Below are positions 16,350-40,516 of a DNA stretch of 64,000 bases, piece after piece (position 1 is the first letter of the stretch; every line of letters begins with the position of its first letter). A program made the position numbers and the translations under genes. The DNA comes from Gyrodactylus bullatarudis (lineage: Eukaryota > Platyhelminthes > Monogenea > Gyrodactylidea > Gyrodactylidae). The notes below the pieces were generated by a model that saw only the letters and a list, made by a program, of their open reading frames with translations, did not search any database and was not told the DNA's origin. Where the stretch lies: positions 841,977-905,976 of the forward strand of contig SSNU01000063.1 of NCBI GenBank assembly GCA_012064415.1. The letters are read 5' to 3'.

Positions 16350-18451
16350 ATGGAGAGTGTTTGGTTTGATTCAAATCAACAGAAAGAAGCCATGAGTAAG
16401 CAAATGATTTGGCAAAACAAGGTGCTTTTTAAACTCACGACTTTCGATGATTTTTAGGCGAAACTTCATCCAAACAAGTGAGCATCCTTGAGATACCGAG
16501 TGCCGATTTGGATGTGAGTTCATTCTGTTAAATTCGTGTTTAAAAAAATTATTTTTCGCTCTTTTTCTAATTCCATCAACCGCCTGGTTATACAAGCGAT
16601 TTTTTCATCTTCTATATGAAATTTATATGAAGTTAGAGATGAATGATGTTTTCAAAAAGGGGGAAAACTCCAAAATTAAATAACCAATAAACTACAATGT
16701 ATAGAGGTTGAGTTCATAATATTAACAGATTTAGACTTGATTAATTTTCTTTCACAATTTAGGCTAGTACATTTCTTGTTTGTGAAAGATATGACTCCTA
16801 TGGGAAATTGATCATAACAAAAAGCAAGCCTGTCTACGTATACAAGAAAGAGGTAAAAGATTTAGACGAGCTAAAATTGGAGCCAAGAGATTTTCGAAGA
16901 AGCAAGGTTAGTTAACCATTATCAACTTGCGCCCTTTTACACACAGGAGAGGAAGGACAACTTCAGGGAATTCGAAGAGAAAATTGAACGTCGAATTGTG
17001 GAAAGGAGGGGTTATCAAAAGGAATTTTTATTGGTGAGCAGCAAGACATACAGCAAGTGTCAAAAGATAGCTAGGGTTTTGATTGTTTAATGTTTCTTAC
17101 ATTTATTGATTTTTCATTGACAAATAGAGTGCTAGTGTCAGTTCACCAAAACCAGAATTTCTCTCACACGACAACTCGAATTTCTTCAACGATAAACAGA
17201 CAAATGAAAGTGTCAAAATAAATTCTGTTAGTTTTTAAATTATTATTGAAACATTTTCAGATCAATAGTCCTATAAAAGTTGAGGAATTAATGAATCGGG
17301 AATCCACGTTTTTCTCAACTACTACAACCTCATCGAAGAACGAGGAGGAAAACTCTGATCCAGTTGTTGTAGCCAAGAATGGAATTATGGAGGGATATCA
17401 GACTATTAATGCTAACAAGAACATCACAGCCTTGTATAACTTGAAGATGGAAAGGAAAAGGGGACGCTTAGCAAAAGATAAACAGGTAGTATACCTCCTT
17501 TTAAAGATTAAATTCGTTATCTATTTTGAGTTATTGGGAATGATTCCTTGTTTGGTTTACTTTCTCCTAGAGAGTAACGTGGTGGTCATTTACTCTAGTT
17601 CATAACAGCTGGATAAATTTCATGAAAATTCACTCCATTCCAGGAATCCTACTCTTCAATGAGAGGTATTTATATAGACGTAAGCTAAAGGCCACATGAT
17701 TGAAAAACATGTAGGAATAACACCATTTTATCGTTGTAACGCATATCTTTTTGAGAAATATTTTATATCACCACCTTTAATGTGCTCTTAATTGTAATTG
17801 ATATAAATAAATTTAATAAGATTAATAATAACAAATTAAAACATGGGTTTACCATCATGCTTAAGCTGCAGCAGAGTAAGTTACTTGACAAGAAATTAAT
17901 CCCTTTGACAACTTTTTTTCAGAAGCAATCCTTACAATTGGAATTTGCAAAGGCCTGTCTAGAGAGACATAACGAGTGAGGAAATTTAATTTTTCATTTC
18001 CACTTCTATAGATTACGAAAGAGACATGGCAGTAGTAGTCTGGTTTTATCGGAAAAATTATCAACCTCTTGCGAACAATATGCAGAGGAACTAGCCAAGA
18101 TGAACTTGTTGGTTCATAGCAAGGGCAAGGGTTACGGAGAGAATTTGGCAATGAAAATACAAACCAACGGTGTCATAATATCGGGAAGTTGGCCAGTTGA
18201 CAAATGGTATTCAGAAGTTGAGCATTACGATTTCAATTCGAATGAAGACCAAATATCATGTGGTAATTTTTCGAGATTATTCATTAAAATTAGGTCACTT
18301 TACACAAGTTGTCTGGAAGGCTAGTCGACAAGCTGGCTTTGGATATGCCTGCAATAAAGAAGGAACTCTAGTTTATTTTGTAGCAAGATATGAGCCACCG
18401 GGAAATGTATCGGGATACTGGAAGGAAAATGTATTTCCCCCCATAGAATAA
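16350..18451 (+). CDS. GAPR-1-like CAP-domain protein with long N-terminal extension
   Basis: Exons: 16350-16395, 16458-16513, 16763-16906, 16947-17033, 17128-17226, 17261-17485, 17923-17975, 18012-18262, 18294-18451, giving about 372 aa with all phases closed. The CAP domain starts near residue 225 (RHNELRKRHG) and contains HSKGKGYGENLAM, WYSEVEHYDF, GHFTQVVW and FVARYEPPGN. These are closest to Golgi-associated GLIPR2/GAPR-1, an intracellular, membrane-associated CAP protein. There is no signal peptide, which also fits GAPR-1 rather than secreted venom-allergen or CRISP proteins. GAPR-1 is about 154 aa, so the first 220 residues are extra: charged, rich in Lys/Glu and Ser/Thr, and of no domain I recognise. 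They begin MESVWFDSNQQ. Two introns are very short: 34 nt (17227-17260) and 31 nt (18263-18293). The latter interrupts the CAP1 signature just before GHFTQ. The first two exons rest on phase and splice-site logic alone. Confidence 0.85.
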
Positions 18452-18590
18452 TGAAATTATCATATTAATATTAATAATGCAAGGAAAAAGATCAAAGAAG
18501 AAAATTAATAATTGCAAAAATATACATTTTTAATATATTCCTCAAATCTTGATTTTAAATGCAATGTAAAAGTAAATTTGAGTGGTAACC

Positions 18591-20024
18591 TTAATTTTTC
18601 TTGAAGAAATCCATCAAATTCTTTTGTTTCGGCTTCGACTTTTCTGCTTGTTTCAGCTTGAAAGGTTCCTCTTTAGTCACTGGTTTAGGTGGGGGAGTGA
18701 TTTTCTTTGGTTCTTCTTGTTCTTCATCGTTGTCTTCAGAATCAGTGACCCAGACTTTTTCTGTTACTAAGATTAAATCAAATATTATTCTTGAAAATAA
18801 AATAGATGAGTACAAAAATTGATTTGGTTAAAATATAACTAATACTAAATTTATTCTAGTATTATTATTAATATTCTAGACAGCTAACTGAAAATTGTTT
18901 AGTTCTGTAAGATTGAGACTAATTCAAAACTGCCTTAATCTAAATGTCTGACTTACTCAAAAATCCATCACTGTCTTTAGTAGTCTGATCGACTAATTTT
19001 CTCTTTTTATTATTTTTGTTCTGAGAATTTAACATTGAAGTCGTAAGTCGTGGTTTACTATCAACATCAGGCTTCTTATCTAGATCATCTTCCCCAACAG
19101 AATTTTTCTTGCGTTTTGCAGTAGATTTCGTTCCTTCAGATTTACAAACTTTCTTTTTCGGCTTACAACTATCTTCATCATCATCCAACATGGATTCTTC
19201 AACGAGGACATTCTCCTCTTTTGGTTCATCTTTAGGATTTTCCTCATCGGAAGAGTCAAACAAAACAGCTCTCTTTCTCACAGTCTTTTTTAAAGGAGAA
19301 ACATTCTTATCTTCTTGAGAAGAGATTTCTTCTTGCTTTTCAACTTTAACTGGAATTTTGGTGGCTTTTGTAGGAGATTTTGTGGCCTTGACAGGCGATT
19401 TTTTATTTAGATTTTCCTTAGAACTGCTAGTGCTTGCAAAGAAAGATTTCGCATTCTTTTCATTGTTTTTCTTAATAATTGCAGCCGGGACTGTAGATAA
19501 TCTGGGAGAATTTGTTTTTTCAGTCTTAGGAGCATTATTCTCGCAACTTTTCAGTTTAACATCTTCTATTGAGCTAGGGAGCCAATTTATCATCGTGATA
19601 CTTGAAAATAATATTAAATAATTTAATTACTTTGAGACAAATTTTGCGTTACGGTCAAATTCATTTGGGAGAGATGATATCCCATCTAAGTCAACGCCTT
19701 TGACACATATACCATAAAGAAAAGATTTTGTAACTTTGAGTTTAGTAGTTTTAGGGTCAAAATTTTTTATTAGGGAAACTGAGCTATTTCCCTCATCATT
19801 TTCTGAGTATACAAAATAAATTGATTCATATTCGTCGTTATTTTCTTTCAACTTTTGAAGAAGACTGGAAAATAATTTGAAAAACAGGCTTACTTGATAG
19901 ATGAATCGTGATTTAAGGATTCTAGACCACTAACAATATAATAGGTTATCTAAATTATTATATATTCAGATTTTACTATATTATTTTCTCTCAAATATTC
20001 TATAATGGAAGTATTGATGCTCAT
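18591..20024 (-). CDS. POLD3: DNA polymerase delta subunit 3 (p66) homologue
   Basis: Exons on the minus strand: 20024-19977, 19949-19894, 19864-19631, 19600-18957, 18766-18591, giving about 385 aa with all phases closed (human 466). POLD3 links polymerase delta to the sliding clamp PCNA and to polymerase zeta. Evidence: the N-terminal YYIVSG (family TYLVSG), the LKVTKSFLYGI segment, a long Lys/Ser/Asp/Glu-rich disordered middle, the conserved GFLITEKVW near the end (human GCIVTEKVY), and a terminal PCNA-interacting box QKNLMDFFKKN (Q-x-x-L-x-x-F-F) at residues 375-385. The N-terminal winged-helix part is incomplete: human-like residues before TYLVSG are mostly absent, so the true start may be upstream or in an unrecognised exon. 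Three introns are only 27, 29 and 30 nt. It is convergent with the CAP gene (140 bp) and head to head with CEP78. Confidence 0.85.
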
Positions 20025-20158
20025 TTAGAAAATTTTCAATTTATTTTCGAAACAGATGCTCATTCAAAAAATTGTGAAACTCTCTACCAGGTTACGTAGT
20101 TTTATTCAATCAATTTAAGGTGGGTTTATGAAAAGTAAACATCAAAGGTAAAACTCTC
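20025..20158. promoter_or_regulatory. Putative bidirectional promoter, POLD3/CEP78
   Basis: Only 134 bp separate the proposed POLD3 start codon (minus strand) from the CEP78 start codon (plus strand). The interval is AT-rich with no obvious TATA arrangement. Shared promoter use is inferred from spacing, and the POLD3 start itself is tentative. Confidence 0.4.
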
Positions 20159-22093
20159 ATGTTTCCAAGAGACAAGTATTCCAAGATCAAAGGAGCTTAC
20201 GATTTTAATTCTTATTATGATGGTATATGCACTTCCAAAAATATATATCCTCTACCTATTGTAAAGACCAATCTGTGTCAGGGCTTAATTGATTTGAATT
20301 TGGATATATTTAGGTAACATACACTTCTAACTAAGTAAAGATATGCCGATTGGGAACCTTTTTGTGAGGCCTTATCAATCAATAAAAACTTGAGATACCT
20401 GCTTTTCAGAAGCTCTTCTTTTAAAGGTAAACTTAAATTAGATTTTTATATCAACAGAAAACCTAATCAAGTGTCGAAAATCGAGTCTTGCTCAATTTCC
20501 CAGTATTCAAGCTTATTTCGCAAATTCTTTAGGTTCATTATTGGCCTATTCTGAAGAAATATACTACTTAGAGGTGATAGGGATCCACCTGAAGGAAAAA
20601 ACCTTCAGATCTGTAGCAGATGGTTTACGATTGAACGGAACACTTACACACTTGAATTTGGATAACTGTAATTTAGGCGAAGATAACTTTGTTCTGCTCG
20701 TTGATTCCATAAAATCTTTATACTGCCTCATATCTCTCAACGTTTCAAATAATAATCTAACATCTCACTGTGGTAGATATATCGCAGAACTCTTTAAATT
20801 TCAAGCAATTCAAAGACACAACAGTGCTTGGCAAAATTCTTTGAGACAAGAAACCACAACCTTTGATCAACTCATGGGTCTTTTACGAATTTCTCTCAAT
20901 GGAAATATTAACTTTGGGGACGAAGGATGTGCTTATTTAATCCAAGGTCTCATCGATAATATATGGGTTGAAGCCATTGATTTGCAAAGGTGTGGAATAA
21001 CAACCATGGGCGCAAACCTCTGGATCGACTTTATCAAAGGATCGAATGAAAATAAAGAACCGGATCAATCTACCATGAATTTACCAAATAAAAGTTTAAT
21101 AGTTTTAGATCTTAGAAGAAATCTAAACATCGATCGTAATTGTTTGATAAATCTAACTGAAATAATTGTACGAAACAGTAAACAGAAAACACCTCATGTA
21201 TGTTAGACCAAGTTGAATAATTTTCTGGAAATACTATTATTTTCTAATATTCAGTTTAGATGGCTGAATTTTGACGGGTCACGGCAACCAAAACCGAGAA
21301 TATGTACAAAAACAATAATAGATAACTGGCCAGGTATTATTAATGTATCAGAAAAACAAATTGCTCGAAATATTTCGACAATTCGTAGACCTTCAAGTGC
21401 CGGTAGTAAAACATCTCCAGTTGTAGCACCAAGTAGGTCACATTCCGCCTCAGGAATGAAGCCAACATTTAAGCCGGGTGGTGGATCAATTAAGTATCAA
21501 TATGTTGGATCGACATTCGTCACTCCTGAGAGAGAATCTATTTGTGACAAAAGAGATAGAATGCCTGAAAGTGTTTGTATGAAACCACCGACACCGATCA
21601 AAAGAACGAAAAAGTTCCCACCGAAAAACAACAGAAGGGGAGATGCTGTTTATAAGCCAGAGACACGAGTAAGATTTTCAAACTGAATTTTACCAGATTG
21701 AACAAAGGAAAATGAAAAACAATCAAATGGGTGATACAATGAATAGCACGAATAAAAGTTTAGTAAATGAAAAGATGATAAAAATTGCCCAGGAATTAGA
21801 ATATGTAACGGAAAAGATGAACTCAGGGATAGTCGAAATCAACATAAAAGTATTAGAGAAACTAAGAAAGACGATTGACAACTTTTGTCAAGCCCAAATT
21901 TACAATGGTACTGAAGAGATTTCCAATCCTTCAAGCATTAAAGTGGGTATATGAATTTTAAACTCTTTAGGAAATCATTGAGATAGAAGAAGATTACAAA
22001 AGACCTAAAAGAACATTTACACAGGATCAAATAAGGACATTTGACATAGAAGACCAGTTTGTCAGTGATTACGACTCTAAGCTTATCGAATGA
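20159..22093 (+). CDS. CEP78: Centrosomal protein of 78 kDa homologue (leucine-rich repeats)
   Basis: Exons: 20159-20313, 20341-20426, 20458-21197, 21255-21668, 21697-21942, 21971-22093, giving about 587 aa with all phases closed (human 689). CEP78 is a centriole/basal-body protein needed for ciliogenesis and centrosome function. The N terminus (MFPRDKYSKIKGAYDFNSYY, then CQGLIDLNLDIF) follows the family. Leucine-rich repeats cover about residues 90-320, with NGTLTHLNLDNCNLGEDNF, LDLRRNLNIDRN and the CEP78-type WVEAIDLQRCGI and LLRISLNGN (human LDLQQCGL, RITLNCN). A Pro/Ser/Lys-rich region follows, then a predicted helical segment (EKMIKIAQELEYVTEKMN) and an acidic tail. Four of five introns are extremely short: 27 nt (20314-20340, with an in-frame TAA), 31 nt (20427-20457), 28 nt (21669-21696) and 28 nt (21943-21970). 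Identity is confident. Confidence 0.88.
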
Positions 22094-22431
22094 AATACAT
22101 TTTTTGATTTTAAATAAAAACTTTCATATTATGAAAACATAATCGTTAACTTACAGTATCTACACTTTAGATTCTACAGAAACTATTTCACACTCGTTGA
22201 TATGGTTTAATATACAGGTCCTTCATTTACTATTAAGTTACTACTAGTAGTATAAGTCGAATATAAGGAATTTCAGAAATGCAATGTTCACAAATTGATA
22301 AATTTCTGAATTATTTTAAGGACATAATGTAAACAAAAATAACAATTTCTTCTATTTTTGAGAATTCATTATTTGTTTTGTTATAGCATTCATTCAAGTG
22401 TTAGAAAAATCATCTTGAAATTCATTTATAA

Positions 22432-23143
22432 ATGATGGAATTCAATGACCCCGATCCTGTAAGATAGTTTTTTAATGACTTAGTCGATGAGAGATATTCC
22501 TTTAACAGGGGAAATTAGCAGTTCCAGCTCATCACAAAACCAAACAGAAGACTCATTTGATTTTGATGAACCTATTCTCAAAACTATTGTAAATTTATTT
22601 AATAATCTTTTATAATCTTAGCTTAGAGATTTATATTCCGTTTGTCGTAAATTTCGTTATGTTCTTGTTCCAAATAAAAATTATGAATTTCTCAATGATT
22701 GGGATCTTTGGGGACCTTTCCTTATATGTATTGCGTTCTCTTTTCTTCTGAAATCAAATTACGATGAGTCCCCGTTGTCTAAAAATACTGGACCAGAATT
22801 TGCACAAGTTTTTCTCATATTTTGGATCGGAGCCCTCATTGTTACAGTTAATTCACAATTGCTCGGTGGAACTCTGTCCCTTTTTCCGACTTTATGTGCT
22901 CTTGGTTATTGTGTGTTACCCTTATTTTTCAGTCTTATCATCTGTCGTATCATTCATGCATTCAGCAATAATATTGGTGGATTTATTGGTCGAGGAATTT
23001 TCGTCATTGTTGGCTTATTTTATTCTGCTTTCTCATCCACAAATTTCATCGTCACAAGCCAAAAGAAGGACAGAGCTCCGTTGGCAGCGTATCCGATTTT
23101 TCTATTCTATCTCTTCTTATCATGGCTAGTAATTTCAGCTTAA
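22432..23143 (+). CDS. YIPF6: YIPF6 (Yip1 domain family member 6)
   Basis: Exons: 22432-22458, 22484-22588, 22622-23143, giving 217 aa (human 236). YIPF proteins are five-pass Golgi/ER membrane proteins that bind Rab GTPases. Family landmarks: MRDIPLTGEI (human QDIPVEGEI), LRDLYSVCRKF, LNDWDLWGP, PEFAQVFLIFWIGAL, NSQLLGG (human NSKLLGG), ALGYCVLPL and AAYPIFLFYLFLSW. Five hydrophobic segments lie in the last exon. The start at 22432 depends on a 25-nt intron (22459-22483). Without it, translation could start at an internal ATG at 22487 with the same downstream frame. The second intron is 33 nt. It lies in tandem 340 bp after CEP78 and is convergent with MELK. Confidence 0.92.
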
Positions 23144-23376
23144 AATGAATTCTCATTCTTGAAATGTATTTTATAAATATATATTCATATTAATACAGAA
23201 TCAAGATATTCACTATTTGCTGATCTTTTTTGAATAAAATTTTTACAAATTAAAAAAGCAGTCTTCATACTTGGTTGAGATTTAGCTACATAAATAAAAT
23301 GTCCAAGAATGATTTAAAATTATTTGTAATTTTCATTAGTCTTCTTTAAATATAAAAATATTGACGAAGGGAATAT

Positions 23377-26164
23377 CTATGAAACTGAGTTTTTGTGAGA
23401 TATTTGAGAATCTGTGATGACACCACGACAAATGCTCTGATATGTAAACGCTTCTCCATGGAGCCTTTTCATTTTCACACCAAGAGTTTGATTTTGGGTT
23501 TTACTACTCTTTGCAGTGTAGAGGGAAGATTGCGTTGAGAATGAAGAATTTGATGAGGCAGCAGACCCATTAGTAACCTTTTCAGTCTTTTTTCGATTAA
23601 AAATGTTATGCATTTTCAGAGGGTTATTTGAGACATTTTCAGAATGATTATCTTCTTGTTCACCTTTTGCAAAGAGGTCAGGTCCATTATTTACCCGGAC
23701 AATTTCAAGTTTAAATGTCAACACCTCTTTTCCCCAATCATTCATTATGTAACAATGAAATCCACCACTATATAATTATTTATATATTAAAAGGTTTCTA
23801 TTTTTTAAATTTGAATAACTTACGATTTGTTAATTTTGTAGTTGATTGCCTTTTTGGTGAGGGAATCAACTAACTTGACGAATATTTCACTTGGACCCAA
23901 TGAATCGCAACAAACAATAACATTTTTACCAGCACGAACCTTGAGAGTAGATTTCAATATTGGATTTTTCCATTTTGATTGCAGAGAGTTAGACTTACTT
24001 TTCTCAGTCGATCTACTGTCAGTTTTTCTCTTTCACCTGATTCACCTAGATTAAAAATAGGAGGTTTACCTTCCGGACAATCTAATGGATAAACGTTTGG
24101 CACAGAATTCTTATCAGCATAACCTACAAGGGTAATAGGATTGCTTAGAAGAGAACATATTCAATTTGGTTAATTATTGACTTACCGGCAAGATTATTTT
24201 TCAAGTCTTCAGGCCTAAGAGAAAAAATATAGTTTAATCATTAAAATTGGAGAGAGTTTTACAGTTCTATGAAAAAATTGGGAGCACTTGGACTACGAGA
24301 TTGTCGATTCAACTTTTTCATAGGTCAACGTGTGAATGAGTGAGGATTAGAAGAACTCATGTAAAAAAAGACGAAATGATGAAATTTAATCGTAAAATTA
24401 AGTTTTCATACATCTTTGATTAAATAAAATGATAAAGAATTCCACAACAGGTGTAACTACTAATGCTGAATTTAGTATAGAGACATTTTTTAGTAGAAAT
24501 TTATTTGAAAATACTCACGCTTTTGACTTGTTATTATTGCTGAGGTTTGATTTGTTAAGCTGATTTATTTGAGAGTCAATAGATCGACTACTCGGAGACA
24601 TGGGTGATTTACCTGAAAAAATAAATTTTTACCAAAAGATGAGTGAATATTTTCTCTCTTAATACTAGAAAAACAATTGAGGGAATATTAATTAATTTTA
24701 AAATATATATAATAAAAAATGGAAAAAATAGAGGAAAACTTACATAAATTTTCAATATTCTTCTTTTTGTTTGGCGAGGAGTTCTCATCAATATACTTGT
24801 TTAAAGAAATGGAACCCTCTTTGAACTTAGGAAAGAAAGATGAAAATGACGAAGAAAAATGGATGAATAAAATACTTACTTTTGTAATTAACTGTTCTTC
24901 AGATAAGGCACGTTGGATCGTTTTTTGCTCACAAACAGCTGAGCTATCTCTGGGCGATTGTCGAGAGTTGTTATTAGAATTCATAAGGTTCTTGTTCTCC
25001 TTCAAAATAGGTTTTTCACTATTGTTGTATACTTTAGTGGTTAATGCTCTGTGAGCCTCTTTGCGGTGAAGTCGTAAAAAGAGGCCTTCTTCGTTAAAGG
25101 CTGTCTCCATAATACGATAAGTTGCCATAATATAATCGTAATAGCCTTTCTTGAGAATTCTGGCTATTTCCACACGAGGAATTCGAGTATATGCAGCAAT
25201 TTCATTCACAATATCCATATTTAAATTCACAGTCTATAGTGATTTTTACAAAATATGTTCAATTTGAGTATCCGATTCAAAAGATTAATACTTACGGGTT
25301 TTTCTTCTTCTATTAGTGAGACTGGTTTATTATAACCTTCGACTATCCACGGGTGTTGGCGAAGATCTTCCATTTTAATTCTCTTCTTAGGGTCAACACA
25401 GAGAAGCTTGCTCAACAAATGTTTGCTATTCTTACTCAAGTAATCAGGCATCTTGTACTGACCCTTGGATATCTTTTGAGGTAGCTCATTTGGATAATTA
25501 GGATCAAATGGAAGGAATCCACATAAAAGAGCGTAGAGTATAACTCCCAATGACCATATGTCAGCAGCATTACCAGAATAATTTTTGTTCGCCAAAACTT
25601 CTGGTGCAGCATATGCGAACGATCCACAAAAAGTATTCAAAAGTTCAGTTCGATTATGTTTAGCACAAAGACCAAAATCAATAACCCTGATGTTCTGATC
25701 ATTATCCAATAGGATGTTTTCTGGTTTTAAATCTCTATGAGAAAATCCTTTCATATGAGAGTAGCCTATAGCTGACACGAGTTGACGAAAGATTACACGG
25801 GCTTTTTCCTCAGATAATTTTTCTTCTTGAAGGATGTAATCGAAAAGTTCACCTCCAGGTAGGTACTTGAGTAATAATAAATTATATAAAAAGTTACTTC
25901 GAATATCAAATAAAAGTGTGAATCGGTTTCTACAACTTGATAAAGCTTATAGATATATTTATGATGAAGTTGCTTCAAGGCATCAATTTCTGTTCGAACC
26001 CTGAATACATCGACTTGAAGTTTCTTTTTATCAATAATCTTAACAGCAACTTTTTGCTGAGTTAAGGCATGGATAGCTGAGTAAATAAGTCCAAATGAAC
26101 CTTCTGCAATAGGTTCGCAAAAGAAATAGCACCCATGTAATGCTTTAGGAGCAAGTAAATACAT
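23377..26164 (-). CDS. MELK: Maternal embryonic leucine zipper kinase (MELK) homologue
   Basis: Exons: 26164-25898, 25865-25296, 25233-24880, 24825-24744, 24612-24519, 24292-24263, 24214-24186, 24123-23999, 23939-23824, 23767-23377, giving about 685 aa (human 651) with every phase closed. MELK is an AMPK-related Ser/Thr kinase of mitosis and progenitor division. Visible: a glycine loop IAEGSFG in which the first Gly is Ala, catalytic Lys in VAVKII (about 42), GGELFDYI, HRDLKPEN (132-139), IDFGLCAK (about 151-158), AYAAPE, a UBA-like segment after HPWI, a long Ser/Asn-rich linker, and a C-terminal KA1 domain (VLTFKLEIVRV ... KMKRLHGEAFTYQSI; human ELEVCQL ... RRQRLKGDAWVYKRL). The KA1 domain carries an insertion of about 65 residues rich in Ser/Asn/Lys. 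The start could lie further upstream in the same frame (26263). Intron 1 is 32 nt. Confidence 0.9.
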
Positions 26165-26483
26165 ATTGAATTTTGTATTTCTTGAAAAATTCCCGCCGAT
26201 ATTTCTCGTATTAGTTAAACAATTCAATTTTTTAATATTCCAACTCAAAAGACAAATGGACATTAATTTGAAGAGTTTTATCTCAATAGAAATCAGTTTT
26301 ATTCAAAAATTTAATTTTGGAAAACTTTTAAAACGTTCTTTATTTACATGTTAAATTTTTCATCCTTTAACTCTCAGATAATTGAGTTTAATTTATATAT
26401 AGATGGTAGTTATTCAATCTTTTTTTGTGCAAAATTCAATTCAGGATTCATCCGAGATAGGAATCGTCTCAAAGTTGAATCTT

Positions 26484-29400: not shown

Positions 29401-31967
29401 ACCTGTTTCAGAATTGCAAATTTATTCAGAATGTAAACGTATCGACTTAAAGAACTTGCTTACATCATGCGGTACATGTCCAAGTATAATACGAGTTTAA
29501 TGAGCTGTAAAAGTATCTGAAAAAACTTGAATTTATGTGGCAGTGAGGTAAGATTAGACAAAAAGTTCACATTATTCTTGTTAAAGAGTTCATAGACCAA
29601 AGAAATTAATTAATTAATCTATTAATTGTCACGTACAATGGAATATCGTTAAATTTACCTAAGATTTTAAGAGAAGCTAGGTCCTTTTTTTGTAAATGAC
29701 CGATTTGGCTAGTTTAGTGTCTTTTCTTCAGGTTCTAAAGGCAAATACAAACCAGAAAGCAGATGTAAGTGAATCTAGTCAACACCGTTTGTGAAACATG
29801 AATTCCAAATCTGGATTCTAAACGATCCTTCAGTGAATTAACCAACACCTCTCGTTACAGATTTTATGTTTTTTGAGTCTTTTGCATAAAAATAATCGAG
29901 GATCTACAAATTTGAGCTCGATTGAGAGAAAATAATGAATTGTCCAAAATTAGGCTATGCCATAAAATCATCAGGCGATCAAAGTTTCGCAATTCATCCT
30001 GCTAATATTCTGCAGAAGTGTTGGAAACCATGTACCCTTGCTTATTTCGGAAAATTATGAATTCCTATCAATAGCAGACTTCATTTTATACGTTGCAGCT
30101 TTATTTTTCAGTAAGAAATTATCCAATAAAAATTTTTGACCTTTTTACATGACTTAGGGCCATAAATTGTGATTTATCTTTTGAGTCTATGCATGGATTT
30201 TGTTTGAAAGTGGCTTCAATTAAAGATTTCTGATCAGAAAAATATACATTTGATGTCTCAAGTTCAAGAATAACCAAATTTTGAAGTTTTTTGGGAAAAT
30301 TTACAAGATACTCTCTTTCTCAATCTTCTCAATTCCAAATCTTACAATCTAAAGTCTTTTTGGAAACTTTCAATAGAGTAATAGTGCAGAGACAAGAACG
30401 AATTAGTAACCTGTTGTCTATCATAATGATTGAGTTTTGTGTTGAAGAAAAGAAAGAACTATGCATCTGATTAGAAATTACAGTTTAATCCACCTGATGA
30501 TGAAAATGTAATAAATCAAGAGAAAGTTATTTCTTCTTGCATTTGTGGAAGACTTTTTTCTCTTTCTGATTCAGTTCTCTTGAATCTTTTTGTCTACATC
30601 AAACATCTATCCTCTTAATGTGAAATCATCTTTTCTCGCTACTTACTAGTAACTTGAATACGTATGGGGAAATTAAAAAAAATTCATTCATCTTTGAATG
30701 ATAAGAGCACTAACATATGAAAAATCGAATTTTAACTTGGATTGTCAAGACATTTCTCATTAAAGTGTGCTTGAATTAGTATGATCATGTTTCAGTTAAC
30801 ATAAACTAGCTCATATTAGCTTTCGAATCGAGTGTATTATTCAAATCAATCTAAACACATGTAATACTAATAATAAAAAAAATTGTGTTCTCATTAAAAA
30901 AATAGAGAATCAAGTTTAACTTACACTTAAAGCATCATTAGTCAAGATGGCCGCAGCAGTGTCATTATGAGAATCTTTATTTTCACTACTGTTCTTCTCA
31001 TTACTAAGTGTACTTCCATAAATTTGAAAGTTATGATGATGAGCTCTGTAATCAGATTCATTGTTATTGTTTACGCTAAGGTTCTCCATGAGACAATTCT
31101 ATAATGAAAAAACAACAGTCTAATTCAGTTTTCTTTTAAATAGGAAAGTAAAGTGTGAGCTTACAGAATCTTTGATTGTTTTCATTTTAGTCAATTGTAA
31201 TTCTTCCATATTTTGTTCGAGAGGTTGTTCGGCCAAGATAACCGAATCGCTAAAACCAAAGTAGGGATCTGGATAGTTCTGATCTCCCATAACTATGGGA
31301 TTGTAGTTCATTGCAATTGCGTTCATACGCTGATGTCTAATGATCAGCGGGTTCTCTGAGTTTGTGGGATGACTATAGTGAACTAGTTCATCGTTATAAG
31401 CCTTATGGGCATTGTCTAGTTCGTGTAGGTTCATTCCCCATTTCTGATAGGACTGAGGAATTCTCGGATCAAACCAAGATGTTTGTTTTGTTTTATGATT
31501 CAAAAAATAAACTTTGTTGTCTGCATTTATTGCCATCTCATATCCATCTGGAATTTGTTGTTTAGCATTTTTAAGATTTGGAACATAAAATCTAAAATTG
31601 AATTTTTCTAATGTAAATACTTGTGAATTTGTGGATTTCTGAAATCTGGTAATGGGGGTATGTATTCTTCAATGGATGAGTTTGGAAGACTCTTTTGATA
31701 TTGATGTGAAGTGTTAGTTGACAGCTTCAGTAGTTCCTGGCTGAATGTAGCAGGAGAAGAATTAGTTTTTGAGTGCGAAATAGTTGGATTATTTTTATCT
31801 GTTTTCGAAATATCTGGGAAAAAGAAAGACTTTGGAAATTTCCTCTCTTTCAATGGGCGGTTATTAGAACTTTTTCTCAAGTTGAATAGCTCTTCAAAAC
31901 TATTTTCAGCTTCTTCTAATTCGAAATACTCTACAGTTGATGGGCAAACTTTGGAAGAATCATCCAT
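26484..31967 (-). CDS. Yorkie/YAP transcriptional co-activator (Hippo pathway)
   Basis: Exons: 31967-31621, 31591-31165, 31098-30925, 29362-29149 and tentatively 26542-26484, giving about 406 aa. Yorkie/YAP binds TEAD/Scalloped in the nucleus and is held in the cytoplasm by LATS phosphorylation. The N-terminal TEAD-binding region has ENSFEELFNLRKS and ERKFPKSFFFP (human NPKTANVP ... RKLPDSFFKP). HSKTNSSPAT at residues 65-74 aligns with the human LATS/14-3-3 site HVRAHSSPAS (H-x-R/K-x-x-S). One WW domain lies at about 129-161 (GYEMAINADNKVYFLNH ... TSWFDPR). Its first tryptophan is Tyr133 and the second (Trp155) is kept. No second WW was found. The C-terminal half is Asn/Ser/His-rich. The last exon (18 codons after a 2.6-kb intron) rests on phase and splice sites only. 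Without it, translation reads past 29149 to a stop at 29111. Intron 1 is 29 nt. Confidence 0.85.
26543..29148. other. Long intron or intergenic stretch downstream of Yorkie
   Basis: 2.6 kb without supported coding sequence. It contains a run of nine G near 26964, a fold-back element at about 27564-28060, and at about 28230-28460 a segment sharing the AAAATCCGGAAT motif and flanks with 57907-57960. Confidence 0.5.
27564..28060. repeat. Fold-back/MITE-like element
   Basis: Inverted arms of about 65-75 bp: 27569-27640 (TTTTCTATAAATTACAATTC, then GGTGTAACTTTTCA and CTGATTCCAATGG) pair with 27997-28060 (CCATTGGAATCAG, then TGAAAAGTTACACC and TTTATAGAAAA). The roughly 350-bp centre has no reading frame. 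This is typical of a non-autonomous DNA element. Confidence 0.65.
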
Positions 31968-32797
31968 TTCTGACAGAAAATTATGTTCTTCTTGAATTTA
32001 AAATTGAATACCCGCTAATTATAAATGACAAAATTCATATTTCGATATAGGGGTTTTAAATTTTTCGTTGGAAACAGTTAATCCTTTTCAAATTCAGATA
32101 ATCAGATTATCATAATCTGAATCAGATTGTCAAATTATTTCACTAAAAAATTTTTATTCTTAAAATTATTTTAGAATAATTCTGACAATATTGGACTAAA
32201 AAAATTGAAACGATTAAATTCAGAAACGAAATTACTCACCATTTTTTAGCTTTTAATCTAAGCGTTTTCTACGTACGATGAGAATAACTCGAGTAATTAA
32301 ATTACAGTTTTTGAGGCAATCTTAGGGTTCGAATATTATACCGTGTTATCCATGTGAAAAAAAGCATATTTCTTTCTTGAGTCGAGGTATCTAAAGGAAA
32401 ACTCTCTTTATTGCTTATTTTTAAAGATTCTACTCAATTGCATCAGTTTATTTATCTTTATCAAATTGATAAATATCAAGGATGAATTGTCCTTCAAAAA
32501 CTGATTATATCGGTATTTTATTGGCATTGGCGAATTAACATTGGAATAGTATACAGATATCTTTAAGAATCTTGTTACAACGGCGAGTTATAATATATTA
32601 TGGACATACGTAAACATGCAAATTTTGCACTGCAAAATAGCCTTTCGGATTAGAATTTTTCAAAAAGGAGCCTTTAGTAATATTGAAACACACAAATTTT
32701 AAAACTTAGTTCCATTTTTTAAATTGAACTATTATTTAGTTTCAAATTCATAATAGAAATTCTATTAGAATATATTCAGACAAAAATTTATATAAAA
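31968..32797. promoter_or_regulatory. Intergenic region between divergent Yorkie and NDC80
   Basis: 830 bp separate two divergent start codons, so 5' UTRs and promoters of both genes must lie here or upstream exons are missed. A small palindrome (TCAGATTATcATAATCTGA) sits at about 32104-32122. No recognisable core promoter motif can be assigned. Confidence 0.3.
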
Positions 32798-34815
32798 ATG
32801 TTCTCAAGAAATTCCCAAACTGCATCCCGAAGTACAGCTCGATCGACTGGAGCTAACAGAGTATATGTGTTTGTTTCTTGCTTTTATTAATTCTACAGTG
32901 TTGACAAAAGAAATCTTTCCGATAAAATTTTTCAGCGCAACGTTGGACTTCGTTTGGTGGATTTTATTGAAAATTTAGATGAAGAAGTCTGTTTGTCTGC
33001 TCGATTCACTGACGACATGACTCAGACAGATATCAAAACTGTTTTTCGACTGTTATTTAAGCAGATTGGCATAGATCTGATAGCTGAACTTAAAAAATCT
33101 CCATTTGAAACATATGTTTATTTTCTAATCGGAGATCTTGGATACCCTTACCGTGTGAACAGATCTTATTTCGTTAACATGACTTCATCAACAAATAAAT
33201 CCAAAATTATTGGAATGTTTGATTGGATTTTGGAAAAATTTTCCGAAGCTGATGCTTCCCTTGTTCCCCAGAGTGATGACAAGAGAGCTCTTATCTGTGC
33301 AAAAGTTTTTCTAAATAACAATTCCAGCATGTCAACCAAGGAAAAAATTATACAGGCCATGGCGAATGAAGCTGACGAATACGTTTCTGATGAGAGACTT
33401 GCCAATCTCAAACAGCAGTTAGATGTAAGATTAATTATAAATTCATCCACTTTTTTTATCAATCAAGTTTCAAACGAATGTTTGCAATAATATCGCTGCA
33501 AAATTATCGAGAGCCGAACATTTTTACAATGAGAAATTTGAGGAAGCTAATAAAATTGAATCTTTAACTCAAATGATACGTGAGAATCAAGATCTCTATG
33601 ATAAGCTTAATGACAAGAAACGACAATTGATTGAAAAGTTTGAGAGCATGCGAATTGAATACGAAAGCCTTAGTGCTCAGAATCAGCGCCTAAATGTTGA
33701 TATTAAAAAACAAATGGTTTCCGGTCTCTCAAATCTTCGCAGAGAGCACAAAGAAATCATTGAAGAAATTGAAAAAATATCATCCAATTGCACAAACAAC
33801 ATAGAAGAAACTGAAAAGATTCAGGAACAAAACTCACAGTTAAAAAAGGAATGGTTGGAGCTCATCGACTCTGTTAATGATCTTATTGTTGTAAGTGAAC
33901 TTTGTCAATAATCTCTTGCTATTACATAGGAAAAATTCATACCAATTGTGAATTCTTTAGATAAGTACTTTGTTAATTTTTAGCAAACTACTTTAAAGTA
34001 GAAACATTTTTATTTTTTTAAATCAAAACATAATTATCTAGTCTACAGTGATTCATTATGTGGGAATCTAATGACAATTTTCTTTCTTAAAATGTTAGGA
34101 GTCAAATTTCGAGGAGGTTGAGACTATTCCAAGAATATTCTCGATGAACATTCCTGAAATTATCAACAATTTGGGCTTATTCACCAGGATTGAAAACCTA
34201 CACGAGATGACCATTCAATCTTCCGACGCTACCCGTAAAAGGCTAGAGGAACTTAAGGCGAATATTAAAAGCATGGAAGAGGAAAAAGTCAAACTTGAGG
34301 AGGACTTGAAGCAGAAGAAGGAGGAAAACAGACTTGGTCTCATCACAAATCAACAAATGAAGAAAAAAATTGAGTTAATTGTTGAGAGTAACAAAAAGTT
34401 GGAAGTAAGAGGAGAAGAACTGAAAAAAGAAATCATCAGCTTGAACAGGAAGATAAAGGAAATGCCTGAAGATAGAATCCATGAAACAAATCAACTCCAC
34501 TCAGTCATGAGAAGCTCTGTTCGTCGAAAGGTATGTCGTTTCCTTGGTTGAATATCTTTTCATCTGATCTTTTGATTTAAAAATTAATCTCACTTTATTT
34601 ATTTTTTAAGCGGCAGACGACAGAAGCTAACGACCAAGTAAGTAAATAATATTAATTCATAAGGAGAAATACATTTCAAAATCAATAATTTTTACTATTT
34701 TAAGGAAAATCCTGAGGCAGATTTATGCAAAGAAATCATTGAACAGGGCATGAAAGATCTCGACATGGAGATGAAAACATTTGAAAACTTATTCATTGTG
34801 AATACTTCCATATAA
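32798..34815 (+). CDS. NDC80: NDC80/HEC1 kinetochore protein homologue
   Basis: Exons: 32798-32860, 32936-33424, 33468-33890, 34099-34530, 34611-34637, 34705-34815, giving about 514 aa (human 642), all in phase 0. NDC80 binds microtubules at the outer kinetochore. A basic Ser/Arg-rich N-terminal tail (MFSRNSQTASRSTARS) precedes a calponin-homology-type domain at about 22-125, with TDIKTVFRLLFKQIG, LIGDLGYPYRVNRS and IIGMFDWILEKF (human DFQMIFTFLYRQID, LLKALGYPFTISKS). Two long Glu/Lys-rich coiled coils follow, broken by a helical segment (IPEIINNLGLFTRIENLH) that could be the NDC80 loop. The end may instead be spliced at 34798 to TTTCACAATAAGC near 34876, giving a different five-to-eight-residue tail. 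Intron 2 is 43 nt. Shorter coils and low similarity make this a fast-evolving homologue. Confidence 0.82.
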
Positions 34816-35328
34816 TTTCCCATTATAACATCTTAAAATTTTTAATAGAGATTGTTCCTTTTTCTTTACTTTCAGTTTCACAATAAGCAAAGTAGCAATT
34901 AAAAAGATTAGACTAGCCGTAGTCAGGTATAATCGTGTGATAATTTATCAGTGATAAATTATAGAATCTATAATATACACTGCATCAATTTTATCAAAAT
35001 TCTAACCTAATGAAATGGTGATTTTCATTAGGAAGACGAGACTATATTGATTTTAACATGGAATCCAATTAAACTTGATAAAAAGTGTCTGGCTTCAAAA
35101 TTAAACTTTCAAGACAATAAACTCTTGAAAATATCAATTACACCTATCTTTATAGGATTAATGATAAACTAAAGAAAATTTTTTATTTAATTAAAAAAAA
35201 TTTTTTCAAAAAAAATATTCCAGTTTGTGAAAAACTATCTCAGGCAATGGCTTAAATATTAAATCCTGTTACGAAAGTAGAGAGTATCATTAATTAATAA
35301 GATGACTTGACAGTTAAATGATGAAAGA
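34816..35328. other. Short intergenic stretch between NDC80 and SQOR
   Basis: Convergent 3' ends. A small imperfect palindrome (ATAATTTATC ... GATAAATTAT) lies at about 34938-34960. Nothing else is evident. Confidence 0.4.
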
Positions 35329-38300
35329 TTAATTCTCAGAATGACGATTCTTTCTGAAATTTAAATATTTCCTGATTGGTGCAGGACCTATCCAGTTACC
35401 TTTCAATAAAAAGTCCCAGTACATTATTGGTAGACATGTCTTCTTGATAAAGGAAAATAGCTTTCTTTCAACACTTTGATCGATTGGCAGGGACTCCTTT
35501 GGTTTTAGACTGTAATCAAACTCTGCAATAATTCCAGAGTCGTATCCGGTTAATATTGGACATGAGGAGTACCCATCATACTGGAAATAAAAATCATGTA
35601 TTTAATTGGTAATTTACAAAAAGCTGAAGGGTATATGATAGTGTGTCATAAGTATGACAACATTTTACAATGAGTTAATTCGGACATAAATTCTAAGATT
35701 AATGCGGTAATTTTAGCATTTGGTCTAACAGTTTTCATGTTGTCTATAACGTTGTTCGCTTGCTGCCTGACTATGTTGTCTTCTGGCTTGTATTGGTCTG
35801 TTTGTAGAAAGAGGAGAATAGGGTGTAGTATTTCTTAAAGAGCAAGGATTATAAAAATTATAGTGATTGTTACAATAATCAGAATTATTAGAGTAATAAC
35901 TCTGATAATATAATTCATCACTTGAAGGAAAATTAAAATNNNNNNNNNNNNNNNNNNNNNNNNNNNNNNNNNNNNNNNNNNNNNNNNNNNNNNNNNNNNN
36001 NNNNNNNNNNNNNNNNNNNNNNNNNNNNNNNNNNNNNNNNNNNNNNNNNNNNNNNNNNNNNNNNNNNNNNNNNNNNNNNNNNNNNNNNNNNNNNNNNNNN
36101 NNNNNNNNNNNNNNNNNNNNNNNNNNNNNNNNNNNNNNNNNNNNNNNNNNNNNNNNNNNNNNNNNNNNNNNNNNNNNNNNNNNNNNNNNNNNNNNNNNNN
36201 NNNNNNNNNNNNNNNNNNNNNNNNNNNNNNNNNNNNNNNNNNNNNNNNNNNNNNNNNNNNNNNNNNAATCACTATAATTTTTATAATCCTTGCTCTTTAA
36301 GAAATACTACACCCTATTCTCCTCTTTCTACAAACAGACCAATACAAGCCAGAAGACAACATAGTCAGGCAGCAAGCGAACAACGTTATAGACAATCTAT
36401 GCCGAACAGCTCCCTGAAGAACTACTTGGTTCAAAATTAAGTTTTCATGTTCTAAAAGTTTGCATCATAAAACTTGACATTCAGTCAAATAATCTTATTA
36501 AAATTTCTGTACTTGTCCCAAAGCTTTTGGAGAATCATAGAATATGGCCTTTTAAATTAAAACCAGAATTCGTTTTCGAGATAGGCTTCAATGCAAAATA
36601 ATGCTTAAATTTTATAGTTCTACCAGAAAAGTTGATAAGAAAATTTAACCCTACTCTAATATACGTTACATAAACCTGATGACATCGATATCATAAAACA
36701 ATTCTTTTTTATTTATCTCATTACTCAACATTACAAAAACAGTATTCTTCTAAATCAAACTGCCTATGATTGTGGAGCTGTTTGCATAGAATGTATCAGG
36801 ATCCGAATTCTCTTTAAAACTTACACATAACATTACACCTCTCATGATTTGAGTGAAATAACAAGTTAAAATACAAGACGCCAAAATTTGATAGACTCAA
36901 AGAATTCGATTCCTCTTGAATAATTAAAAGTACAAAAACATGTCACAAATTCTATTTTTATTTATTTAGCAAGCAGTATACTGATTTGATACGAACCAAT
37001 GCAGAATTAGAAAGGGCTAAAATTTCAAAGACCCACTCTACCTGGTGATTTTGAATTTTGATCGAAATCCAAGAGAATCTAAAAATTTTCTTTCTTCTAA
37101 CTTCATCATTGACGTAGAACAATTTCTTTCTAACCAAAGGTAGAAGAATAGTTGAAATTTATTTTAATGTCAATACATTTTCGTAATATTCGTATAGCGA
37201 GAATCCGAGTAAAAGTATGATATAAATCTTTTTTTTTCTATATATTAACTTTTGATCATTCAAGATTTATATCGTCTTGAAGGCTTGAATTAATAATAAT
37301 AAGTTGCTAAAATGACGTGTGATAGAACTATCACTGTGGGACTTTAAGGCTTAATGTTGAAAGAATTTCTATTACATTTTTAAAGCAAAAATAAATTATC
37401 CTCCCTAATTTTGACTGCGGTCATGGACTTCTCTACCAAATCCCTCAAAAAAATCAGCAAAAAGCCCCAAAGGATTCAGATCCTGTGTTGGACCTCACTA
37501 TTATAAAACTCTCTTGGACCTATCGAATATGCATCCTTCATGGTTTTGTAGAATCGCCGCCTTAGCTTCCCTTTTCAGCAACCGATTGCCTACTCAGCTA
37601 TCCAGATATAATCTCAGATGTGGAATTGATTTCTCTATTTTCCGAAATATAATATTATCGCGCTTCCAGATAAATTTATACATTTTTAAAGATTTGAAAA
37701 TCAGCCAGATTTGTAAGTATCTCAATCAATTTATCCCAGATAACAAAAATTATTTTGTAATTATATTAAATAATCTTCCAAGTAAATAAAAATCTATCAT
37801 ACATGTATGATTTTCTAGTTTAGTTAATGTCTAAAAACAGAAATTAACAATATCGATTGATATTGAAGAAAGAATAATATCAGTATTTAAATGCTTTCGA
37901 TAATTAATCTGTACCCTCGTTTATATAAATTGAGAAAATCTTTTTAACTTGTTTCTGATGATTCTTTATCGATCTATTCAGGTTTGAAGGCTTACTAACC
38001 CTAACTTTGATCATGAATCAACCAATGAAAATACAGTACTTTATTAGGTGTCTATTGAATTGATTGATTCATCACTTAGTTAGTGAATTGGACCACCGTA
38101 TAGCAGACCTATTTTGTATAGAGTCTGTTACACATCGAATTCTCAGTAACAATTCAACGTGCATTCATCTAAATTAGTCCGGGAAACACATAACCGAGCG
38201 AAACCCTTCTAATAGTTGACTTTTGAGCTTGTCAATAAGGCCGAAATAGACCCAAATAGGAATTTGATAAAGCACAGAATCAAAGAGACTTCTCATTGGC

Positions 38301-40013
38301 TAACCCGAAAATCACCCAGCCAAAAAACAAGAACATTAAATTAACACTTGGATTGATTCAAGTCTCAATAAACCAATATGACAATAACACACAGTAAACA
38401 ATATTCGTATTACAATTTATGATCAAAGAAAGTTTAAACAAAGGTTGAATAAATCCTATGTTTATGATCGAGTTAAAACCAAGTAAAGTGCAAAATGTGA
38501 AACTCAAATCTGATGATTAAGCATAGAAGTACATAGAAGAACATTTGTTGAAAATTTTTCAGCATTCTTTAAAAAATATTTTCTCTGCTGAATAAAACTA
38601 TGTTTTGCTGAGTTTTATTACCAAAATGTGAAAGAATCATACATGATTTTATGACAATAAAAAACCCTAGTTTTAGTGATGATTCATTAGGATTTAATTC
38701 AACTCTTTAGAGAAATCTTGTTCCATTCATGTTTTTATTCCGTGTAGGAAATCAATAAAACATTCGGACTTTATTCACCAATTTGTGAAAATATGACACG
38801 ATTATTATAAATTCAGACTACATGTATTTATCAGTCAAAAATTAATTCTGCTCAGCAAGTTGAATAGAGAATCAGATATAAATGGGAAATAAACTAACTT
38901 TGGCGCTGGGTTGATCTGTCTTGTTGATAGCTTTGAGAAGATTTTTTTCAACAACACCCATTTGTGTAGAAGCACTGGCAGCTGTCTTTGACGTTGGAAG
39001 ACTAGTGCAGTCTCCAATTCCAAAAATATTTTCAAAATTATCATGTCTCAGTGTATGCTTGTCAATCATGAGAAATGTTTCACACAACTCTTTATTGGTT
39101 GATAGGCATGCTGGGACTTTCATCGGAGGTGTTACATGCAGAAAGTCATACTTTTCTACTTTTTTTGTTTTATCTTTCAAGTTTTGTACAACAATTTCAC
39201 TTTTGTTATGATCAATCTCAACAAGTTCTTGTTGGAGTCCGACGTTGATGCCCTTACTCGATGCTATTTCTGTCAATTTCATAGAATAATGATCAACACT
39301 GAATAATTTTCCAGTACCTGTCAAATAGGTAATCTTGGATCCTTCACGCTTGTTATTTTTTCTTAGATAATCCTCAAAGAGATACATAACCTTTTGAGCT
39401 CCACCAGCACATTTAACCGGTGATGAGGGAAAAGTGAAAATAGCTGACTGGTTTTTAGCAAAATTCTCATAAGCAGGAAAAGTTTTTTTGACATAAGTCG
39501 GAGAATAATTTGTGCAAACCCTGGGATCATTATCAAGCGCATCAGATAATCCTTTAATCTAAATTGCGAGTTAATAATGTAAAACTCACTTTTTCATAAT
39601 CTGGTATGATACCCAAGGCGATGACCAAATAATCATAAGTTATTTCATCTTTTCCAGTAATAATCTTGTTTTCTTTTGGCATAAATTTCTGAACTGAATC
39701 TTGAATCCATTTACAATTCGGAGGAATAAGGTCTTGCATTTTTCTAAAAGTGTCCTCATATTTGATGATTCCAGCTCCAAGACAAGTAAAAAAAGGTTGG
39801 TAATAATGAATTTCAGAAGGGTCAATTATAGCAAGCTCTCCTTTGGGTAATTTCTTGTGAATACGACTAGCAAGACCTAATCCTCCAGCACCTGCACCGG
39901 AAATAACAACTTTGAAATGTTTCTCTCTATTTATAGAGTGGAAGAAGGAGGATTTTTTTGTCGAAAGAATGCTAAAATAAAAATTTTATACATTACTAGG
40001 AGAATCTGTTCAT
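35329..40013 (-). CDS. SQOR: Sulfide:quinone oxidoreductase, mitochondrial
   Basis: Exons: 40013-39997, 39971-39590, 39558-38899, 35580-35329, giving 436 aa (human 450) with phases closed. SQOR oxidises hydrogen sulfide on the inner mitochondrial membrane and passes electrons to ubiquinone. A short basic, hydroxylated leader (MNRFSYILSTKKSSFFHSIN) fits mitochondrial import. The FAD Rossmann motif GAGAGGLGLA lies at 31-40. The two redox cysteines are present: VKCAGG (Cys183) and GYSSCP (Cys360), spaced as in the human enzyme. Other matches are YDYLVIALGI, HVTPPM, IFGIGDCTSLPTSKTAA and PIMYWDFLLKGNWIGPAPIR. The first exon is only 17 nt and is followed by a 25-nt intron; the next intron is 31 nt. 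The last intron is 3.3 kb and holds the assembly gap inside a palindrome. It is head to head with SH3BGRL. Confidence 0.92.
35741..36396. repeat. Perfect inverted repeat flanking the assembly gap
   Basis: About 128 bp at 35741-35868 is exactly reverse-complementary to 36267-36394 (outer end TGTCTATAACGTTG, inner end ATAGTGATT). The 327-base gap and about 70 known bases lie between them. The left inner part (CTGATAATATAATTCATCAC, about 35901) and the right flank (CTATGCCGAACAGCTCCCTG, about 36398) match the element at 44030-44695. This is either a young fold-back element or an assembly artefact at the gap. Confidence 0.8.
35940..36266. other. Assembly gap (327 N)
   Basis: A run of undetermined bases inside the last SQOR intron. 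Its true length and content are unknown. It sits at the centre of a perfect palindrome, a structure that commonly breaks assemblies. Confidence 1.
36397..38898. other. Intronic DNA of SQOR, little recognised
   Basis: The 3' continuation of the repeat family reaches about 36440. A segment at about 37420-37640 is less AT-rich and holds a 91-codon plus-strand frame (37514-37789) that I cannot assign. It might be a decayed element or pseudogene. The remainder is AT-rich without structure I can name. Confidence 0.35.
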
Positions 40014-40138
40014 TTTAGAGCCTATTTTGAAAATCTACAAAATTCAGCTGTATCAGTACAAATTATTTTACTTTCGTAGAATTTTGTTATAACTGTTTTA
40101 AAAAATTTCGGCATTACGAAATCTCTCGATTGAACAAA
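40014..40138. promoter_or_regulatory. Putative bidirectional promoter, SQOR/SH3BGRL
   Basis: Only 125 bp lie between two divergent start codons whose reading frames are both well supported. A shared promoter is inferred from this spacing. No specific element is identified. Confidence 0.5.
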
Positions 40139-40516
40139 ATGTCAATTAACGTTTATGTATCTTCCATGCCCGGTCAAACCCAAGTAAACTCGATTGAAAT
40201 AACTTTAAGATAAAATACAAACAATCTCTCGTTGATGTTATATTAAAATCGAAGAATATTGACGTAAACTTTATTGACATTTGTTCCGATGAAGAGGTAA
40301 AAGAGTTTTATAAGAATTCTTTAAAATCATCCGGTGTAACAGACTTGTCTCTTCCGAAGATTTTCAATGGAGAAAAATATCTCGGTGTGAGTTTAAATTT
40401 TCCTTCTACTCTGAAATATTTTTAAGTCTTCGGAATTCCTCTAGGGCTTTGACGAGCTACAACAAGCCAATGAAGATGGAAAAATCCACGAATTTCTCGA
40501 GATCAAAGAGAAGTAA
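40139..40516 (+). CDS. SH3BGRL-type thioredoxin-fold protein
   Basis: Exons: 40139-40183, 40210-40386, 40445-40516, giving 97 aa, near the usual size of SH3BGRL/SH3BGRL3 (93-114 aa). These small cytosolic proteins have a glutaredoxin fold without the active-site cysteines. The pattern follows the family: MSINVYVSSMPGQTQ (human RVYIASSSGSTAIK), the strand VNFIDICSDEE (family FEEKDIAANEE), LPKIFNGEKYLGG (family PQIFNESQYRGD) and FDELQQANEDGKIHEFL. No CxxC is present. Intron 1 is 26 nt (40184-40209) and must be removed to join SSMPGQTQ to IKYKQS. Confidence 0.88.

Follow-up and report, generated by a model that had tools for sequence, protein, structure and literature searches.

How short can an animal's introns be and still be removed by the major spliceosome? 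The question is raised by a 64,000-nt stretch of contig SSNU01000063.1 (hereafter the window; 30.4% GC), in which a first-pass annotation had placed sixteen introns of only 25–34 nt. The contig that holds the window is 1.12 Mb long, and the assembly to which it belongs comprises 77.3 Mb and 471 contigs. All sixteen segments, each lying on one strand, carry GT..AG ends and have exactly the lengths first given for them. Judged by their letters they are almost certainly real introns, and we consider it very probable that they are ordinary U2-type GT–AG introns of the 'peak-1' short class of flatworms. This class would here be centred near 31 nt and would reach down to 24–25 nt, beside a second class and long introns.

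Frame, splice signals and homology

Retention of any one segment introduces a premature stop into its spliced model (16 of 16). Twelve do so through a frameshift; the other four (19601, 19950, 20314 and 22589, segments being named by their first coordinate) are multiples of three and bring in an in-frame stop. The first stop lies within the segment itself in 11 of 16; the count for 22459 presumes a start codon in the first YIPF6 exon, and a downstream start is also possible. On a splice-site weight matrix trained solely on 159 introns of at least 46 nt, the sixteen segments have a median score of 1.90, compared with −4.59 for all 6,179 GT..AG pairs of 20–40 nt in the window, 2.9% of which score 1.90 or more. 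Four segments score below zero, namely 20314 (−2.88), 22459 (−0.93), 25866 (−0.82) and 19950 (−0.49). We accept 25866 despite its score because homology carries it. A self-trained gene finder with a log-uniform length prior recovered 12 of the 16.

The first-pass annotation had stated that removal of each segment restores a known family alignment. This holds for five, where homology crosses the join (18263, 22589, 25866, 39559 and 40184), and in part for two more that it supports (22459 and 39972); for the remaining nine of the sixteen the case is made by frame and splice signals. The count of eight neighbouring genes should likewise be amended, since we count nine.

Further homology comes from outside the window. 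In total, 13 short introns of 24–37 nt lie at gapless joins of residue-level alignments, distributed over seven unrelated genes in three stretches of two contigs (the window and L005 of C130; C250). RFC5 has introns of 25, 27, 31 and 26 nt at such joins (E 3.1e-107), and XPD has introns of 24, 35, 37 and 31 nt (E 2e-198). The 24-nt XPD intron falls inside codon 2, and the protein alignment begins at residue 1. The other gapless joins are in DBR1 (30 nt), MELK (32 nt), SQOR (31 nt), SH3BGRL (26 nt) and YIPF6 (33 nt). In addition, the Pfam domains SNF, SURF4, Inositol_P and Aminotran_3 cross short introns in an SLC6-type transporter, SURF4, an inositol phosphatase and an aminotransferase, respectively. 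The shortest intron that we would defend on these alignments is 24 nt. In DNA as AT-rich as this, and with evidence drawn from sequence, apparent introns might stem from misassembly, sequencing mistakes or gene decay. Such an origin is highly improbable: all sixteen sites have GT..AG ends, and 13 junctions, in unrelated genes of separate stretches and contigs, are crossed by homology without a gap.

Length classes, splice letters and controls

Intron lengths were compiled from 234 kb, made up of the window and 170 kb from eight contigs (11 other stretches). The finder, whose prior spanned 15–6,000 nt, called 38 genes with 214 introns in this sample; six introns below 24 nt were dropped as unreliable, leaving 208 in 34 genes. 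Forty-nine of these measure 24–43 nt (median 31, interquartile range 29–36), none 44–52 nt and 75 measure 53–100 nt (median 63), with 84 longer (median 398). The called introns thus include a discrete short class, set apart from a second class: if lengths were log-uniform, 17.6 of the 115 introns of 24–80 nt would be expected at 44–52 nt, against the zero observed. The second-class median is about twice the first, the same ratio as in the published tapeworm peaks (36/73 nt). Kept in the transcript, 48 of the 49 short introns break the frame; for all 55 called introns below 46 nt the outcome is a frameshift in 38, a stop in 14 and an open frame in three. Applied unchanged to seven held-out loci (21 kb), the frozen model called 20 introns, including ones of 28, 26, 33 and 46 nt and a 24-nt call in coding sequence. 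Short introns cluster by gene (15 adjacent pairs compared with 9.5 expected, p 0.025), with no clustering within genes (p 0.60).

Donor GTAAGT and a T-rich acceptor are common to short and longer introns, the letters being nearly alike. The donor G at +5 is weaker in short introns (55%) than in those of 46–100 nt (81%) or above 100 nt (69%). Motif discovery returned TTNAAT in short introns and WRTYRAW in introns of 52–100 nt; both exceed shuffled controls and are compatible with being branch-site candidates. A scan for U2 complementarity gave an excess of about 2 standard deviations by strong sites in introns of 46–100 nt (62 compared with 54.7).

A number of results weigh against our interpretation of the segments. 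First, the gene finder made no call for four of the sixteen (20314, 22459, 39972 and 40184). Homology crosses the join of 40184, however, and the N-termini of the proteins lend support to 22459 and 39972. Second, the leucine-rich-repeat protein encoded in the window has no relative at E ≤ 0.001 and no Pfam family, only leucine-rich-repeat and similar chains being matched. Third, when the finder was given dinucleotides only, GT..AG yielded 41 introns of 24–45 nt compared with 10–24 for eleven decoy pairs, a small excess at 46–99 nt (46 compared with 27–43) and none at 15–23 nt (5 compared with 4–16). We take these decoy counts to be high because any permitted pair bridges real inter-exon gaps; the finder is therefore by itself no proof. 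Deprived of splice signals it found little, and in 70 kb of its own spliced coding sequence it called no intron, a partly circular test. Fourth, the short-intron branch motif exceeds shuffles only modestly (23.3 compared with a null maximum of 18.5), its positions are uninformative because their median is the centre of the searched stretch, and U2-complementary sites were no more frequent in short introns than in shuffled controls (z 1.4; 26 strong sites compared with 24.3). Lastly, two of the finder's calls were rejected: a 17-nt call in XPD, because the sequence there reads as conserved helicase, which is a sign that calls below 24 nt are unreliable, and the 24-nt call in held-out SMU1, where the SMU1 alignment continues across the segment and shows it to be coding.

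It is conceivable, albeit doubtful, that a minority of the sixteen are wrongly delimited, chiefly 20314–20340 and 22459–22483, and that the rest are real. Both the donor and the acceptor of 20314 are weak for this genome, as is the acceptor of 22459, and the finder, silent on 22459, favoured acceptor 20409 for the donor of 20314; because of this pairing with a later acceptor, 20314 is the least certain of the sixteen. However, the frame stays open on removal of either segment, and removal of 22459 gives an N-terminus resembling two schistosomatid proteins.

Splicing machinery and known short-intron systems

If the segments are ordinary U2-type introns, recognition of the whole intron is probable, with U1 on the donor and, at a branch site around mid-intron, SF1 followed by U2. 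That they are spliced at all, and where they branch, we infer from their letters. Since the U2-complementarity scan was null in short introns, we can offer a geometric bound only: with at least about 5 letters from branch point to acceptor, the donor-to-branch distance in a 25-nt intron would be at most about 20 nt, which would leave little space for a pyrimidine tract. In human extract, splicing is abolished at a donor-to-branch distance of 46 nt, about 50 nt being needed for efficient assembly, and human Smu1/RED are essential when this distance is short (PMC6692369); human SPF45 also serves short introns (PMC8363638). By analogy with human cells, crowding at the activation stage could be relieved by SMU1 and RED, on which short introns in this worm may depend.

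The genes for both factors are present here (SMU1, E 2.3e-189; RED, E 1.5e-64). Of the splicing components singled out for comparison by the first-pass annotation, U1, U2 and SF1 were covered: the usual pairing regions are present in one of two U1 and two of three U2 matches, and there is an SF1 gene. The two U1 matches (L023 and L024, position 1501) have the 5' arm ACTTACCTG in one and ACTTACTTG in the other; the donor consensus GTAAGT is complementary to U1. Both arms start with AAACTTAC, and the second copy may be a variant gene or a pseudogene. The corresponding vertebrate start we take to be AUACUUAC. GTGTAGTATCTGTTCTT is found in two U2 matches; the third (L016) does not have it, nor the branch-pairing letters GTGTAGTA present in the other two, and is perhaps a pseudogene. 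The SMU1 gene itself has a predicted 26-nt intron near its start (L027 1580–1605), and the gene for the lariat-debranching enzyme DBR1 (C250 stretch, 38614–40000) contains the 30-nt predicted intron mentioned above.

The empty interval at 44–52 nt could also be viewed as a forbidden zone between mechanistically distinct introns, the short ones using a special splicing mode, for example a U2AF-independent SPF45-type route or one dependent on SMU1/RED; the human SPF45 and Smu1/RED work lends this some plausibility. We regard it as unlikely, since the held-out loci include one 46-nt call, donor and acceptor letters are nearly identical between the classes, and two peaks have already been described in flatworms. 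We would give similarly little credence to the proposal that the spliceosome here works in two geometries: the first would serve introns of 24–43 nt, whose donor and branch would lie no more than about 20 nt apart, and the second those longer than about 52 nt, with intermediates selected against and the short mode always needing SMU1/RED. If this were true, a gyrodactylid would be a natural test of the minimum room of the major spliceosome.

Our preferred interpretation, ordinary introns of the flatworm short class, draws on the identity of the genome. A mitochondrial cox1 gene on another contig decodes AGR to Ser and TGA to Trp, with AAA where Asn is expected, which fits the flatworm mitochondrial code. 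Across its entire length the encoded protein shares 89% identity with that of Gyrodactylus albolacustris and 83–84% with those of Macrogyrodactylus, Cichlidarus and Paragyrodactylus. The genome accordingly belongs to a gyrodactylid monogenean, a flatworm that lives on fish, most likely Gyrodactylus; a dicyemid, considered at first, is set aside on the cox1 placement. In size and base composition it comes close to the published Gyrodactylus assemblies, which have 67–91 Mb and 31–39% GC (PMC12677651). Tapeworm short introns peak at about 36 and 73 nt, a pattern also reported in Gyrodactylus salaris, which is of the same family as this worm (PMC5036155). Here too there are two discrete, AT-rich classes of short intron, the longer about double the length of the shorter. 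The medians here, from gene-finder calls, are 31 and 63 nt; a peak near 36 nt is thus not seen. We treat this as a length variant because the published figure is a tapeworm value, and on these calls the short class is about 5 nt shorter. Tapeworm peak-1 introns lie toward the 3' ends of genes (PMC5036155), whereas here there is no end bias (17, 14 and 15 short introns by thirds). The liver fluke Opisthorchis felineus has peaks at 37 and 90 nt (PMC6530080), hence also a short class near 37 nt, and introns that tend to neighbour one another; its microintrons are enriched at 5' gene ends, whereas here we see gene-wise clustering only.

Introns of 25–30 nt are also known from dicyemids, where the median is 27 nt in Dicyema, compared with 57 nt in an orthonectid (PMC6543705), the mean is 26.2 nt in one set (n = 16; PMC2222250) and 38 nt in D. 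japonicum, and about two thirds of introns are below 30 nt (PMC2222250, PMC6543705, PMC6736024). In contrast, only about a quarter of the introns here are below 46 nt, beside the 53–100 nt class and long introns, and 159 of 208 are at least 46 nt. We know of no multi-kilobase introns in Paramecium. This unrelated ciliate has introns of similar length, 20–35 nt (PMC2222250). No statement of a flatworm peak near 31 nt, or of flatworm introns of 24–25 nt, was found in the available portions of the open-access literature searched. The finding is thus real yet of known type, because short classes are published for tapeworms, G. salaris, liver fluke and dicyemids. Of the first-pass view that the spliceosome here has very little room, and less than animals generally allow, the former part stands and the latter is overstated in view of these precedents. 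This is nevertheless an animal with recognisable U1, U2, SF1, SMU1 and RED genes and with introns that measure 24–34 nt from end to end in such fundamental genes as RFC5 and XPD. Gyrodactylids would be useful for asking which change permits the major spliceosome to function in so little room. There is also a warning for annotation: with the usual preset lower limit on intron length, many genes of this genome would be broken up.

Host genes of the sixteen introns and other features

The nine host genes are an unnamed gene, a CAP-domain gene, a POLD3-like gene, a leucine-rich-repeat gene, YIPF6, a MELK-like kinase, a WW-domain gene, SQOR and SH3BGRL; their limits are approximate because the finder merged neighbouring genes in several places. 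The unnamed gene (about 16350–17679), for which no Pfam family scored above cut-off, has a 34-nt GT..AG intron at 17227–17260 (forward strand), called by the finder, with a stop inside if kept and without homology. In the CAP-domain gene the 31-nt intron at 18263–18293 (forward) likewise gives a stop if kept, and the CAP domain runs across the join, the Pfam score rising from 31.4 bits for the open frame preceding the intron to 69.8 bits after splicing, when the match covers the domain in full. The POLD3-like gene on the reverse strand has introns of 30 nt (19601–19630), 29 nt (19865–19893) and 27 nt (19950–19976), all finder calls with a stop inside if kept. Its protein matches CDC27 (PF09507, E 1.6e-7) over residues 128–384, downstream of the 19601 intron; there was no PDB match, and the Pfam match appears only once the last exon is included.

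The leucine-rich-repeat gene (forward) harbours introns of 27 nt at 20314–20340, with a stop inside if kept, 31 nt at 20427–20457, where retention causes a frameshift and a later stop, and 28 nt at both 21669–21696 and 21943–21970, each with a stop inside if kept; the last three are finder calls. This gene is presumably akin to CEP78, a name that could not be confirmed. YIPF6 (forward) has a 25-nt first intron at 22459–22483, around which the protein N-terminus, MMEFN.. joined across the intron to SM, aligns with MLEFQ.. in two schistosomatid proteins, a third beginning after the intron. Its 33-nt second intron at 22589–22621 sits at a gapless junction against seven YIPF6 proteins and has a stop inside if kept. 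On the reverse strand, the MELK-like kinase has a 32-nt intron at 25866–25897 (gapless against MELK 4umt, E 8.6e-90), and the WW-domain gene a 29-nt intron at 31592–31620, a finder call with a stop inside if kept and the WW domain downstream. We assume without confirmation that the WW-domain gene resembles YAP.

SQOR (reverse) contains a 25-nt first intron at 39972–39996, 17 nt into the coding sequence, and a 31-nt intron at 39559–39589, gapless against SQOR 6mp5 (E 1.4e-80). If the former is kept a stop interrupts the frame, and only on its removal does the model gain a start codon and a leader before the FAD motif. The same gene has a predicted 3,318-nt intron, in agreement with the first-pass statement that short and multi-kilobase introns occur side by side; this intron spans the single N run of the window (327 N, 35940–36266). 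In SH3BGRL (forward) the 26-nt intron at 40184–40209 lies at a gapless junction against SH3BGRL 8iah (E 6.6e-9), and the spliced protein matches Pfam SH3BGR (E 7.9e-20).

Some other features were noted in passing. The window also holds an NDC80/HEC1-like kinetochore gene (32798–34815; PF03801, E 7.4e-9) with predicted introns of 75, 43, 208, 80 and 67 nt. A reverse transcriptase-like open reading frame lies at 5887–7561 of the C250 stretch (RVT_1, E 2.6e-6, under the family cut-off), with a C-terminal motif that we take to be the GIY-YIG of Penelope-like elements; the 49 short introns include a doubtful 32-nt call from this frame. In the C100 stretch, a gene called at 14641–21658, presumably encoding an adenylation-domain protein, includes a transposase domain of IS1595/ISXO2 type (PF12762, E 3.1e-16), perhaps from an intronic transposon. 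In the same stretch, genes for ribosomal protein L38e (PF01781) and the SLC6-type transporter (PF00209) follow one another head to tail at 3969–10936 and were fused by the finder, possibly reflecting tight or operon-like spacing.

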